This document shows positions 4,167 to 34,647 of a DNA stretch of 64,000 bases, one piece after another (position 1 is the stretch's first letter; each line of letters starts with the position of its first letter). Below the pieces are notes generated by a model that was not told where the DNA came from, ran no database searches, and saw nothing but the letters and a program-made list of their open reading frames with translations. The position numbers and the translations under genes are program-made. This stretch comes from Pandoraea thiooxydans (GTDB taxonomy: Bacteria > Pseudomonadota > Gammaproteobacteria > Burkholderiales > Burkholderiaceae), in the NCBI RefSeq assembly GCF_001931675.1, contig NZ_CP014839.1:3906001-3970000 (forward strand). Reading direction: 5' to 3'.

Positions 4167-5588
4167 TCAATAGCGATAGTGCGCCGGTTTGTAGGGCCCC
4201 GCCTTGTCCACGCCGATGTAGCTTGCCTGCGCGTCGCTCAGGGTGGTGAGCTGCGCGCCGATGCGCTCCAGGTGCAGGCGTGCGACCTTTTCGTCGAGAT
4301 GCTTGGGCAGCACGTACACCTTGTTCTGGTATTGGCTGCCGTGCTTGAACAATTCGATCTGCGCCAGGGTCTGGTTGGTAAACGAGTTGCTCATCACGAA
4401 CGACGGGTGGCCGGTGCCGCAGCCCAGATTGACCAGGCGCCCCTCGGCCAGCAGGATGATACGCTTGCCGTCGGGAAACTCGATGTGATCGACTTGCGGC
4501 TTGATGTTTTCCCACCGGTACTGGCGCAGCGACGCGACGTCGATTTCCGAATCGAAGTGGCCGATGTTGCAGACGATGGCCTGGTGGCGCATCGCTTTCA
4601 TATGATCGTGGCCGATCACGTGGTAGTTGCCGGTGGCCGTGACGAAAATGTCGGCCTTGTCGGCGGCGTATTCCATGGTCACCACGCGGTAGCCTTCCAT
4701 GGCCGCCTGCAGTGCGCAGATCGGATCGACTTCGGTGACCCACACCGTCGCGCCCAGGCCGCGCAGGCTCTGCGCGCAGCCCTTGCCGACGTCGCCATAG
4801 CCGGCCACCACGGCGACCTTGCCGGCGATCATCACATCGGTCGCGCGCTTGATGCCGTCGACCAGCGATTCGCGGCAACCATACAGGTTATCGAACTTCG
4901 ATTTGGTGACCGAATCATTGACGTTGATGGCGGGAAACGGCAGGCGGCCGTCCTTTTCCATTTGATACAGGCGATGCACGCCGGTCGTGGTTTCCTCGGT
5001 CACGCCCTTGATCTGGGCAAGCCGCTTGCTGTACCAGTGCGGGTCGATGGCCAGGTGACGCGCGATGGCCGCATACAGTGCCTGTTCTTCTTCGTTGGTC
5101 GGCTTGGCGATGGCGCTGCGGTCCTGCTCGGCCTTGCTGCCCAGGATCAGCAGCAGCGTGGCGTCGCCGCCGTCGTCGAGAATCATGTTGGCATGCTGCT
5201 CGCCCGGCCATTCGAAAATGCGGTGGGTGAATTCCCAGTATTCGTCAAGCGTCTCGCCCTTGTAGGCGAACACCGGCGTGCCGGACGCGGCGATCGCGGC
5301 GGCGGCGTGGTCCTGCGTCGAGAAGATGTTGCACGAGGCCCAGCGCACTTCGGCGCCCAGGGCGGTGAGCGTCTCGATCAGCACGGCGGTCTGGATCGTC
5401 ATGTGCAGCGATCCGGCCACACGCGCGCCCTTGAGCGGCAGGGTGCTCCTGTATTCGTCGCGCAGCGCCATCAGGCCGGGCATTTCGGTCTCGGCAATGG
5501 CGATTTCCTTGCGGCCCCAATCGGCCAGCTTGAGATCGGCGACGATGTAATTGGCTTGCGATTTGCTATCGACTACGGCGTTCATCAC
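4167..5588 (-). CDS. ahcY: adenosylhomocysteinase (SAH hydrolase)
   Basis: AhcY splits S-adenosylhomocysteine to adenosine and homocysteine with a tightly bound NAD+, relieving product inhibition of methyltransferases. The 473-residue protein has the NAD-binding [13 protein letters not shown] motif near residue 260, the catalytic-region segments [15 protein letters not shown] and TTTGVHRLY, and the C-terminal KPAHYRY that reaches into the neighbouring subunit. The ATG at 5588 follows a very strong Shine-Dalgarno (AAGGAGG, 5-6 bases). The leader carries an SAH riboswitch, so the enzyme is expected to be induced by its own substrate. Confidence 0.98.
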
Positions 5589-5620
5589 GCCTCCTTTCTA
5601 TGAAGTCTAGAAATTAAAGA

Positions 5621-5715
5621 CGTGAGCGCCGTTGCGGTGTACGGCCGCGCAGGCGGCCGACGGGAACACTGCCTTGAGCCTGGCGGCGCGGGGGCCGTTG
5701 CAACGCTCCTCAAGA
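5621..5715 (-). promoter_or_regulatory. SAH riboswitch in the ahcY leader
   Basis: Read on the minus strand, the leader contains the two best conserved blocks of the SAH riboswitch at the expected positions: GAGGAGCGTTGCAACGG at the 5' side and CAACGGCGCTCACG at the 3' side, joined by the conserved CCAGGCTC segment and a variable GC-rich hairpin (GGCCGCC / GCGGCCG). The GAGCG and CGCTC ends pair to form P1, and GTTGC/GCAAC form the flanking pseudoknot-region pairings. SAH riboswitches are known to switch on ahcY and methionine-cycle genes in beta- and gammaproteobacteria. The ahcY ribosome site lies about 25 bases downstream. Confidence 0.92.
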
Positions 5716-5720
5716 CAGAG

Positions 5721-6688: not shown

Positions 6689-7543
6689 TTAGTGCGTGCC
6701 TTCCGGATAATCGGCGCCGATGGTGGTCGCCTCCCACGCATCGAAGTCGCCGCGCAGCTTGTCGAGCTTCTCGCGCGCCAGTCCCAGGGCGGCCTTGCCC
6801 AGCAGCAGTCGCAGCGGCGGCGTGTCCGACAGCGCCGCGTCGATGATGGCTTGCGCGGCGCGCACCGGGTCGCCCACCTGCTTGCCGCTGCGCGCTTCGG
6901 TCTGCTTGCGGCGCTCGCCAGCCGTTTCCGCATAGTCGTCGATGCGCACCGCCGATTGCTGGATCGAGGGGCCTGCCCAGTTGGTGCGGAATGGCCCCGG
7001 CTCGACGATCAGCACGCCGATGCCCAGCGGCTTGAGTTCGATCGCGAGCGACTCGGAAATGCCCTCGACCGCGTACTTGGTGCCATGGTAATAGCCGGTC
7101 GCGGCAAAGCTGGTCAGGCCGCCGATCGACGAGACGTTGACGATCAGGCCGCTGCGCTGCGCGCGCAGGGTTGGCAGCACCGCCTTGGTCAGGTCGACCA
7201 GCCCGAATACGTTGGTTTCGAACATCGCGCGCACCGCGCCATCCTCGCCCTCCTCGATCGCCGCCAGATAGCCATACCCGGCGTTGTTGACGAGCACGTC
7301 GATGCGGCCGAATTTCGCCTTGGCCTGCGCCACTGCCGACTCGATCTGATCGTGCCGGGTCACGTCCAGCGCCAGCGCCAGCGCACGGTCTTCATGCCCG
7401 GCGACGATGTCGGCCACCTTGGCCGGATCGCGTGCGCTCACGACCGCGCGCCAGCCGCGCGCGAGCACCAGTTTGGCCAGTTCGCGGCCGAAGCCGGTGG
7501 AGCAGCCGGTGATCAGCCACACCGGGTTGTCTCGATTCATCAT
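6689..7543 (-). CDS. short-chain dehydrogenase/reductase
   Basis: A classical SDR of 284 residues. The NAD(P)-binding motif TGCSTGFG lies near residues 11-18, NNAGYG near 88, the catalytic Ser in NVSSIGG near 138 and the Tyr/Lys pair in YYHGTKYAVEG near 152-158, followed by EPGPFRT. The substrate cannot be deduced. The start is the ATG at 7543 with AGGAGA seven bases upstream. It lies on the same strand as, and 100 bases downstream of, the aldo/keto reductase gene, so both may form a unit controlled by the divergent LysR gene. Confidence 0.88.
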   Translation of the reverse strand: MMNRDNPVWLITGCSTGFGRELAKLVLARGWRAVVSARDPAKVADIVAGHEDRALALALDVTRHDQIESAVAQAKAKFGRIDVLVNNAGYGYLAAIEEGEDGAVRAMFETNVFGLVDLTKAVLPTLRAQRSGLIVNVSSIGGLTSFAATGYYHGTKYAVEGISESLAIELKPLGIGVLIVEPGPFRTNWAGPSIQQSAVRIDDYAETAGERRKQTEARSGKQVGDPVRAAQAIIDAALSDTPPLRLLLGKAALGLAREKLDKLRGDFDAWEATTIGADYPEGTH

Positions 7544-13389: not shown

Positions 13390-14019
13390 TCAGTTACGCT
13401 TGACGCGATAGACCGCAAGACTACCACGCCAATTGGCACCCCAATTCACCGGCCGGCCATCATGCAGCACCGCGCGGTCGAGAATGCGAACGCCGACCTC
13501 GGGCGCGAGAGCCTCGAAATCGCGAATCGTCAGCACCCGTACGTTGGGCGTGTTGTGCCACTGGAACGGCAGGCTTTTCGATACCGGCATGCGCCCGCGC
13601 AGCACGGCGAGGCGATGCGGCCAGTAGCCGAAGTTCGGGAACGAGACGATCGCCTCGCGCCCGACGCGCACCGTCTCGCGCAGGATATCGGCGGTGCGGT
13701 GAATGGTTTGCAGCGTTTGCGACAGGATCACCATGTCGAAACTTTGGTCTTCGAACAAAGCAAGGCCGCCTTCCATGTCCTGCTGGATCACGTTGATGCC
13801 CCTTTGCGCGCTGGCCAGCACGCCGGCATCGTTGATCTCGACGCCGTAGCCGCTGACATCGAGTTCGTCGGTCAGAAAACGCAGCAGCGAGCCGTCGCCG
13901 CAGCCCAGGTCGAGCACTTGCGAGCCGGGCTGGATCCAGCGTGCGATGACGCGAAAGTCGTTACGCGGCGCGAGCCCTTGCAGGGCATTGTTCTGCGCCT
14001 GGATAGCGGTTGCATTCAT
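13390..14019 (-). CDS. metW: methionine biosynthesis protein MetW
   Basis: A 209-residue protein with a Rossmann methyltransferase-like fold: the SAM-site motif [16 protein letters not shown] near residues 31-46, then GYGVEIND and [12 protein letters not shown]. MetW is required with MetX for homoserine acylation in several proteobacteria. The start ATG overlaps the metX stop (ATGA, 14016-14019), so the two are translationally coupled. It is probably under the SAM-II riboswitch that precedes metX. Confidence 0.95.
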
Positions 14020-15185
14020 GCGCCGACCTCCGTGGCGATGCGGTCGTAATAGGCGCGCACCAGGTTGTGGTAGCGCGGATCGGTCAGCAGGAAGGCGTCG
14101 TGGCCATGGGGCGCATCGATCTCGGCATAGCTCACCTGGTGCCGATGATCGAGCAGCGCCTTGACGATCTCGCGCGAGCGCGCGGGAGCAAAACGCCAAT
14201 CGGTGGCGAACGACACCACCAGATATTTGGCGGTGGTATGCGCCAGCGCGCGCGACAGGTCGCCGCCGTAGGCGCGTGCCGGATCGAAGTAATCGAGCGC
14301 GCGGGTGATCAGCAAATAGGTGTTGGCATCGAAATACTCGGCAAACTTGTCGCCCTGGTAGCGCAGGTACGACTCCACTTCGAACTCGACGTCGAAACTG
14401 AACTTGTAGCCGTCGCGCTCGACCGCGGCGCCGTCGGCCAGCGCTTCGGCGCGCTGCAGCGAGCGGCCGAATTTGACCGCCATGTCTTCATCGGACAGAT
14501 AGGTGATGTGCCCGATCATGCGCGCCACGCGCAGGCCGCGGCGCGGCACCACGCCATGGGCGTAGTAGTCGCCGCCGTGAAAGTCCGGATCGGACAGAAT
14601 CGCCGAACGCGCGACTTCATTGAAGGCGATGTTCTGCGCCGAGAGTTTGGGCGTCGAGGCGATCACCAGGCAGTGCCCGACCCGCTCCGGGTACATGATG
14701 CTCCACGCCATCGCCTGCATGCCCCCGAGGCTGCCGCCCATGACCGCGGCAAAGCGCTCGATGCCGAACGCGTCGGCCACGCGCGCCTGCGCGTTGACCC
14801 AGTCCTCCACGGTCACCAGCGGGAAACTCGCGCCATAGGGCTTGCCGGTCGTCGGGTCCAGGCTCATCGGGCCGGTCGAGCCGAAGCACGAACCCAGGTT
14901 GTTGACCCCGATGACGAAGAAACGATTGGTGTCGAGCGGCTTGCCGGGGCCGACCATGTTGTCCCACCAGCCAGCCGTTTTGGGGTCATCGCTATAGCGC
15001 CCGGCGACGTGATGGGAGGCATTGAGCGCATGGCATACCAGCACGGCATTGCTGCGCGCGGCGTTGAGTTCGCCGTAGGTTTCCACGGTAAGGTCGTAGC
15101 CGGCCAGCGTGCTGCCGTTCTGCAACGGCAGGGGCTCGGCGAAATGCATGCTTTGCGGCGTAACGATGCCGATCGACGATTCCAT
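14016..15185 (-). CDS. metX: homoserine O-acyltransferase (MetX)
   Basis: MetX activates homoserine for methionine synthesis. It is an alpha/beta hydrolase-fold acyltransferase of 389 residues. The nucleophile Ser sits in [14 protein letters not shown] near residue 155, the Asp in [11 protein letters not shown] near 320 and the His in [12 protein letters not shown] near 353. [14 protein letters not shown] is the substrate-site segment. MetX proteins paired with MetW in proteobacteria have been reported to use succinyl-CoA rather than acetyl-CoA. I cannot fix the acyl donor from the sequence alone. Its leader contains a SAM-II riboswitch, implying repression by SAM. Confidence 0.96.
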
Positions 15186-15253
15186 AAATGCTTGTCCGAA
15201 GGGCGGCACAAAGGGGTCGATCGACTGGCGACATCGGGAATGAGCGCCGGCAA

Positions 15254-15334
15254 CCTCTTTAGCCGCATTTATATGAAATCCGGTCTTGCGACAGGAGTCC
15301 GCGCGCCCGCAAGCGAGTCACCAAATCGGCGCGC
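15254..15334 (-). promoter_or_regulatory. SAM-II riboswitch in the metX leader
   Basis: On the minus strand a perfect 7-bp P1 stem (GCGCGCC / GGCGCGC, 15328-15334 with 15301-15307) closes a loop with the SAM-II pattern GATTT...CTTGC. It is followed by an inserted hairpin with a GCAA loop, then the conserved tail ATAAATG-CGGCTAAAGAGG. CTTGC in the loop can pair with GC-U-AAG in the tail to form the H-type pseudoknot P2. The layout matches SAM-II (SAM-alpha), which represses methionine genes when SAM is high. The metX ATG lies 68 bases downstream. Confidence 0.85.
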
Positions 15335-25506: not shown

Positions 25507-25909
25507 GTCGTCGAACACTCCTTCTCGTTCGGCCCTTCGCCACTAGCTTCAGTCTCGCCGACCTATCCCGTGACTACTACGGCCTCTGCTGACGCCTCGC
25601 TCCGATTCGACACCGTTGCCCTTTCAGGCATGAGGCGAGGACTCCCCAGGTAAGAGCGCACTCCTTCATCGCACAACCGCTGCATTTACGCTGCTTCGCC
25701 TTGGTCACGAGAGCTTCGCGGTTTCATGCCCGCTCGCCCTGCTAGGCAGCGCCTTCTATGCAGTTCTTGTTCATCGGCTCGCGATTTACGATCCACGCTT
25801 CCTCCCCACACTCGGTCGCCCTCATGCAGTTGCGCTTCGCTTCATTCGCTGTGACCAGCTTGTGGCGGGACTTACACCCGCAGGAGTGCGCCCATGCTGG
25901 GCGCACATG

Positions 25910-33292: not shown

Positions 33293-33325
33293 TTGACAGC
33301 GCAAAAATTTTCAGAGGCGTATAAT
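33293..33325 (+). promoter_or_regulatory. possible metK promoter
   Basis: A perfect TATAAT at 33320-33325 lies a few bases before the riboswitch and is a convincing -10. The only good -35, TTGACA at 33293-33298, is 21 bases away, longer than usual, so the pair is doubtful even though each hexamer is perfect. Confidence 0.4.
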
Positions 33326-33330
33326 AAACG

Positions 33331-33412
33331 GATCGCCGAGTTAACAGACAACTTGCGGGGCGATTCACGGTCGGGGTGACCCGGCCGTCAGTAAAGTAAT
33401 CCGCTAAAGCGT
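33331..33412 (+). promoter_or_regulatory. SAM-II riboswitch in the metK leader
   Basis: P1 (ATCGCC at 33332-33337 with GGCGAT at 33358-33363) closes a loop with GAGTTAACAG...CTTGCGG. A separate GGTCGGG-GTGA-CCCGGCC hairpin follows, then the tail GTAAAGTAATCCGCTAAAGCG. TTGCGG in the loop can pair with CCGC-U-AA in the tail, the pseudoknot helix P2 of SAM-II, with the unpaired U where the family has its U-A-U triple. The order and conserved letters match SAM-II. The metK ribosome site is 46 bases downstream. High SAM should lower metK expression. Confidence 0.83.
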
Positions 33413-33468
33413 CGCCGCTTCAACGAAAGACGGCAACGTGAAAAGCCAAAATCGTTTAGGAGCTTGAA

Positions 33469-34647
33469 GTGGCGACCGACTACCTGTTTACCTCCGAGTC
33501 CGTTTCCGAAGGCCATCCCGACAAGGTGGCCGACCAGATTTCCGATGCTGTGCTCGACGCCATCCTGGCCCAGGACAAGTATGCGCGCGTCGCAGCCGAG
33601 ACACTATGCAATACCGGCCTGGTCGTGATGGCCGGTGAAATCACCACCACCGCCACCGTCGATTACCAGCAGGTCGCGCGCGAAACGATCCGCCGCATCG
33701 GTTACGACAACACCGACTACGGCATCGACTACAAGGGTTGCGCGGTGCTCGTGGCCTACGACCGCCAATCACCCGACATCGCGCAGGGCGTGGACCGCGC
33801 CCACGACGACAACCTCGACCAGGGCGCCGGCGACCAGGGCCTGATGTTCGGTTTCGCCTGCAACGAGACGCCGGAGCTGATGCCGCTGCCAATTTATCTG
33901 GCGCACCGGCTGGTCGAGCGGCAATCCGAGCTGCGTCGCGACGGCCGCCTGGACTGGCTGCGCCCGGATGCCAAGTCGCAGGTGACGATCCGTTACGTCA
34001 ACGACCGGCCGCACAGCATCGACACGGTCGTGCTCTCGACCCAGCATCACCCTGACATCACACTGGACAAATTGCGCGAGGCAGTCGTCGAGGAAATCAT
34101 CAAGCCAGTGCTGCCGAAGGATCTCATCAAGGGCGACGTCAAATTCCTGGTGAATCCGACCGGACGCTTCGTGGTTGGCGGCCCGCAGGGCGACGCCGGC
34201 CTGACCGGGCGCAAGATCATCGTCGACACGTACGGCGGAGCCGCGCCGCACGGCGGCGGAGCCTTCTCCGGCAAGGACCCGTCCAAGGTAGACCGTTCGG
34301 CTGCCTATGCGGGCCGTTACGTTGCGAAAAACATCGTGGCCGCCGGTCTGGCGGAAAAATGCCTGATTCAGGTGTCTTATGCGATCGGCGTGGCGCGCCC
34401 GACCTCGGTGATGGTCAATACCTTCGGCACCGGCAAGGTCAGCGATGCGAAGATCACCGAACTGGTGATGAAGCATTTCGATCTGCGACCCAAGGGCATT
34501 ATCCAGATGCTCGACCTGCTGCGTCCGATTTACACCAAGGCCGCAGCCTACGGCCATTTCGGTCGCGAAGAGCCGGAATTCACCTGGGAGGCGACCGACA
34601 AGGCCGCCGAACTGCTGGCCGATGCGGGCCTGCGCGCCGTGGCCTGA
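33469..34647 (+). CDS. metK: S-adenosylmethionine synthetase
   Basis: MetK makes SAM from methionine and ATP. The 392-residue protein begins with [27 protein letters not shown] read in parts (ATP-site His in GHPDK). [12 protein letters not shown] lies near residue 121, the phosphate-binding [19 protein letters not shown] near 260 and [21 protein letters not shown] near 285. The start is a GTG at 33469 with TTAGGAG seven bases upstream. The leader holds a SAM-II riboswitch, so the enzyme should be feedback-controlled by its product. Confidence 0.98.

Follow-up and report, generated by a model that had tools for sequence, protein, structure and literature searches.

In the window, the 64-kb stretch of Pandoraea thiooxydans DNA analysed here, the S-adenosylmethionine (SAM) synthetase gene metK is directly preceded by a leader with the features of a SAM-II-type aptamer (Table 1). 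The P1 stem, TTGCGG loop and tail named in the original prediction were all located where it had placed them, and the pairs of the TTGCGG:CCGC-U-AA pseudoknot that it proposed are present. In the pseudoknot GCGG (33355-33358) pairs with CCGC (33401-33404), and the pairs U33354-A33406 and U33353-A33407 are added around a bulged U33405; the tail of the aptamer, GUAAAGUAAUCCGCUAAAGCGUC, ends at 33413. The P3 hairpin, which is variable and frequently missing in the alignment of relatives, had not been foreseen, nor had a helix that sequesters the start codon or a second copy of the element 5′ of metX.

Table 1. Features of the metK leader and of other SAM-cycle loci in the window.
Feature	Position	Strand	Details
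SAM-II-type aptamer	33332-33413	+	Directly 5′ of metK; P1, pseudoknot and extra hairpin
metK, S-adenosylmethionine synthetase	33469-34647	+	PF00438, PF02772, PF02773
-10 box TATAAT	33320-33325	+	6 nt 5′ of P1; from sequence
P1 5′ strand AUCGCC	33332-33337	+	Partner 33359-33364
P1 3′ strand GGCGAU	33359-33364	+	Partner 33332-33337; sequence and covariation
Loop GAGUUAACAGACAACUUGCGG, 21 nt	33338-33358	+	Sequence
Third-strand segment GAGUUAA	33338-33344	+	Aligned to SAM-II contacts of PMC3764141
Possible P2a strand GAC	33347-33349	+	Partner GUC 33411-33413; weak
Pseudoknot 5′ strand UUGCGG	33353-33358	+	Pairing and covariation
P3 hairpin in third loop	33367-33388	+	9 bp, GUGA loop; fold
Pseudoknot 3′ strand and ligand-contact run CCGCUAAA	33401-33408	+	Sequence and alignment
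Sequestering strand GUCGCCGCUUCAA	33411-33423	+	Directly 3′ of aptamer core; 13-bp helix with 33464-33476
Putative Shine-Dalgarno UAGGAG	33457-33462	+	Sequence
Sequestered strand UUGAAGUGGCGAC	33464-33476	+	Includes GUG start codon 33469-33471
Second SAM-II-like element, classical type	15252-15333	-	Model R2, 19.7 bits, E 0.0018 in window
metX, homoserine O-acetyltransferase	14016-15209	-	Identified from translation
SAH riboswitch	5617-5717	-	RF01057, 56.6 bits, gathering 37
ahcY	4167-5588	-	SAH riboswitch directly 5′

The metK leader scored 66.5 bits (E 2.9e-15) with a model whose training set excluded the window and its family, and the organism's own 4.46-Mb genome contained a single strong model match, the runner-up reaching 14.6 bits. 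When 200 genomes from the same order were searched at the DNA level, the segment turned up in many genera, mostly directly 5′ of metK, and 107 of 139 distinct long-pseudoknot aptamers precede this gene. The predicted association with metK is supported. Alignment of 25 sequences gave 97.3% standard pair cells and five pairs altered on both strands; no shuffle out of 500 matched the observed pairing or covariation score. Among the 139 distinct aptamers P1 was 97.1% paired (shuffles ≤86.7%), with compensatory changes at pairs 1-3, while the two pseudoknot-extension pairs were 100% paired (shuffles ≤92.1%). Both of these pairs exhibited GC to AU swaps, with 53 cases of A-U for G-C at the first. 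The statistics of both sets are only partly corrected for shared ancestry, but the swaps are spread over several distant families. The compensatory changes among relatives that the original prediction implied are present in P1 and the pseudoknot in both sequence sets. The motif in the metK leader is therefore real and exceeds what chance would produce.

Rfam scans at gathering and permissive thresholds gave no SAM-family match at the metK leader. The SAM_alpha model RF00521 (gathering threshold 36 bits), whose covariance search had been expected to recognize the element, returned nothing in the leader up to an E value of 10, and neither RF01726 (SAM-II long loops) nor RF01826 (SAM-V) matched it at E 10. 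RF00521 also lacked a significant match across the organism's own genome and, at gathering, any match in eight other metK loci; among the metK leaders scanned, L026 was the only one with an RF00521 score (20.9 bits). A pattern search of the organism's genome found no match because the third loop is longer than the permitted gap. Nevertheless, models R1 and R2 coincide with RF00521 places in G260, G444, G049, G476 and G696, where RF00521 itself scores above the Rfam cut-off in the first three and just under it in G476 and G696 (non-gammaproteobacterial). As models derived from metK leaders recover RF00521 loci, the metK element is homologous to SAM-II. The proposed SAM-II identity is upheld in this sense, but the absence of an RF00521 match, the G in place of U10 (see below) and the longer pseudoknot set the element apart. 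Since RF00521 is blind to the leader even at E 10, the leader is classed here as a divergent, putatively translational subtype of SAM-II in which the pseudoknot is longer, rather than as a plain Rfam member. Of five gammaproteobacterial SAM-II-like loci (L047, L048, L050, L055 and L062), RF00521 at gathering misses four, with L062 alone clearing the threshold (38.3 bits). The Rfam SAM-II model misses a large group of relatives, and genome annotations consequently undercount SAM-II-type switches.

The ligand contacts of SAM-II (structure 2QWY) are tabulated in PMC3764141. The equivalents of pocket bases U11, U12, U20, U21, G22, C23, G42, C43, U44, A45, A46 and A47 are all kept in the metK leader, where 33340-33342 correspond to U10-U11-U12 and 33405-33408 to U44, A45, A46 and A47. 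The only SAM-pocket contact of 2QWY that is not kept is U10, which is invariant among the SAM-II sequences of PMC3764141 and is replaced by G at 33340. Position 10 is G in 96 of 107 distinct metK aptamers and U in the other 11; the subtype offers a naturally occurring test of a pocket position presumed to be invariant. In SAM-V the counterpart of U10, U8, props the adenine-pairing uridine via one hydrogen bond (PMC6061858). By analogy, G10 could plausibly stand in for U10.

Immediately downstream of the aptamer core, the 13-bp helix covers the GUG start codon of metK. In 118 metK leaders the equivalent start-site pairing averaged −20.6 kcal/mol compared with −14.9 kcal/mol for dinucleotide shuffles, a statistic that ignores shared ancestry, and was individually significant (p ≤ 0.05) in 73. 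The sequestering helix overlaps the start codon in 103 of these leaders and a Shine-Dalgarno-like word in 117. In 70 leaders, the mean pairing of matched strands was stronger than in all 10,000 between-species permutations. Start-site pairing that is both enriched and species-matched supports translational control, and the start-codon helix is a likely expression platform. A terminator scan 5′ of metK found none on the plus strand. The alternative pairing predicted for the SAM-free state was −12.8 kcal/mol in the 118 leaders, compared with −10.7 kcal/mol for shuffles, reaching p ≤ 0.05 in 20, and any excess was not specific to species (p 0.38). An exchange of strands involving P1 and the post-aptamer strand is thus compatible, but species-specific covariation does not support it.

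With respect to the promoter, a -10-like hexamer occurs within 25 nt 5′ of P1 in 104 of 106 metK relatives, and its spacing from P1 is 6-7 nt in 75 relatives against 42 expected by shuffling. With this spacing, transcription probably starts at the first bases of the aptamer, which would then form the 5′ terminus of the message. A classical TTGACA-type promoter was rejected, as the hexamer at 33293-33298 is 21 nt from TATAAT; a promoter scan found none.

With good confidence, the metK leader is interpreted as a divergent aptamer of the SAM-II type, which would sense SAM and in response repress the translation of metK. Binding of SAM, the adenine of which would pair with U44, is proposed to lock P1 and the pseudoknot; G10, in place of U10, is expected to act as a hydrogen-bond donor to U44. 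In the locked aptamer the strand 33411-33423 would be free to pair over the start codon and no MetK would be made, while in the absence of SAM the same strand would pair instead with the freed aptamer segment GCGGGGCGA (33355-33363), leaving the start site open. Plentiful SAM would thus shut off SAM synthesis. We infer SAM binding, the OFF direction and the SAM-free pairing from the leader sequence.

The predominance of G10 in metK aptamers also fits a SAM-II relative with a pocket altered to accept SAH, methionine, decarboxylated SAM or a polyamine, and there is precedent in unrelated SAM-I class variants that switched to spermidine, one of which lies 5′ of metK (PMC10853860). The location of certain members 5′ of MATE transporters and MoxR ATPases points the same way. 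A change of ligand is nonetheless quite unlikely, as U11 and U21, the uridines that contact the sulfonium, are kept together with U44 and A47, and the metK aptamers with U10 show that either base is tolerated upstream of this gene. Also unlikely is the broader proposal that the G10 subtype constitutes a distinct class of the SAM-II/SAM-V superfamily, with changed ligand choice or affinity, which would control the essential gene metK across most betaproteobacteria and, elsewhere, MATE exporters and MoxR ATPases.

P2a and the 13-bp helix, at its base, compete for GUC (33411-33413), so the direction of control cannot be read from the sequence by itself. A SAM aptamer could therefore operate as an ON switch for metK if P2a in the bound state withdrew GUC from the sequestering helix, and GAC/GUC is indeed paired in 92% of cells in the 25-sequence alignment. 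Such a switch is very improbable, however, given that only three of the 13 helix pairs would be lost, that P2a displays no compensatory change in that alignment, and that a product activating its own synthetase would be metabolically odd. The GACAACUUGCRGGGC segment is highly conserved in sequence, which might alternatively reflect a protein-binding site or DNA operator rather than a metabolite-sensing RNA, but this is scarcely credible in view of the compensatory changes in the pseudoknot, the asymmetry of the conserved loop, the position 3′ of the -10 box and the homology to SAM-II. Repression of metK by a SAM-sensing aptamer remains the preferred interpretation.

The collected loci comprise two subtypes, a classical beta/gammaproteobacterial type and the long-pseudoknot type. 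In several loci a terminator comes after the classical type (GAUUUGA...CAGCUUGCGGGCGC...GCUAAAGCG), whose downstream genes, named from translations, are sulfhydrylase-like, metF-like, metE-like and transporter genes. The long-pseudoknot type (ACAACUUGCRGGGC...CYGCUAAAGCG) lies mostly 5′ of metK, but also 5′ of a small ORF and MATE transporter, there sometimes as the second member of a tandem with the classical type. Named carriers include Cupriavidus, Polynucleobacter, Polaromonas, Roseateles, Achromobacter, Thauera, Dechloromonas, Accumulibacter, Chromobacterium and Desulfobulbus alkaliphilus. The window also contains a weaker, SAM-II-like element of the classical type directly 5′ of metX, in which U10 and GCUAAA are present; RF00521 gave it a partial match of 15.6 bits, under Rfam detection, and it was found only with the new model. 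A metW-like methyltransferase ORF is next after metX. With the canonical SAH riboswitch of ahcY, further downstream of which lies metF, the metK and metX elements make three candidate SAM-cycle switches in one 64-kb stretch. Group II intron domains (RF02001, RF01998) matched at 25532-25825 on the minus strand.

The metK subtype shares with SAM-II (RF00521, 2QWY) an H-type pseudoknot, the equivalents of G8, U11, U12, U20-C23 and G42-A47, and an occurrence at methionine-pathway genes. It differs in G10, in the pseudoknot lengthened to GCGG/CCGC, in the GACAACUUGC loop and variable P3, and in scoring under RF00521 detection. Its predicted start-codon sequestration contrasts with the terminators usual in alpha- and betaproteobacterial SAM-II (PMC2258182). 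The view of SAM-II as an alphaproteobacterial class, on which the original prediction drew, is partly outdated: betaproteobacterial examples, mainly with terminators, were noted in 2007-2009 (PMC2258182, PMC2704228). SAM-V (RF01826) resembles the metK subtype in pocket geometry and in having P1 and the pseudoknot strand separated by a P3 stem-loop; its control is translational (PMC6061858), as that of the metK subtype would be if the start-site helix acts as proposed. In tandems with SAM-II, SAM-V forms the second, translational unit, a place that the metK subtype takes in some genomes. However, P1 is 4 bp in SAM-V and 6 bp in the metK subtype, and SAM-V sequesters via P2a over the Shine-Dalgarno sequence rather than via a long separate helix.

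Leyn et al. 2014 (PMC4239095) describe a metXZ RNA element of betaproteobacteria, at metX and metZ and with a terminator. Like the elements studied here, it forms a pseudoknot, precedes methionine genes and occurs in the same bacteria, but metK is not reported there among its targets; the metXZ element is probably the classical subtype seen here 5′ of metX. Tandem SAM-II arrangements, in which the first aptamer is coupled to a terminator and the second acts on the ribosome-binding site, are described in the accessible part of PMC9481103. The same arrangement occurs at L032, L034 and L037, although a separate metK-associated subtype is not described in that part.

No report of a betaproteobacterial metK SAM riboswitch was found in the open-access literature; as most subscription journals lay outside the search, priority for the subtype is not established. 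The main comparative study of proteobacterial methionine regulation reported no RNA element 5′ of betaproteobacterial metK (PMC4239095), a gap that a widespread SAM-II subtype at this gene would fill, closing a feedback loop on SAM synthesis.

Several further loci were observed. Tandems of a SAM-II-like aptamer and terminator followed by the long-pseudoknot subtype are present at L032 (1322-1554), L034 (1470-1721, minus strand), L037 (1362-1567) and L015. All four are followed by a small ORF with no Pfam match, with a MATE-like transporter ORF next in L032, L034 and L037 and none seen in L015. At L027, L044, L153 and L197 the genes that follow the long-pseudoknot subtype, or a close relative of it, encode MoxR-type AAA ATPases, which would not be expected as targets of a SAM switch. 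One gammaproteobacterial family (L051, L081-L084, L088-L091, L093 and L094) carries a related motif in which P3 is long; it lies 5′ of an ORF of ∼102 amino acids with no Pfam match (representative from L088). Outside the Pseudomonadota, metK of Desulfobulbus alkaliphilus has the motif with U10 (L173, 7269-7324, minus strand), with another, weaker match a short distance upstream (7406-7455).
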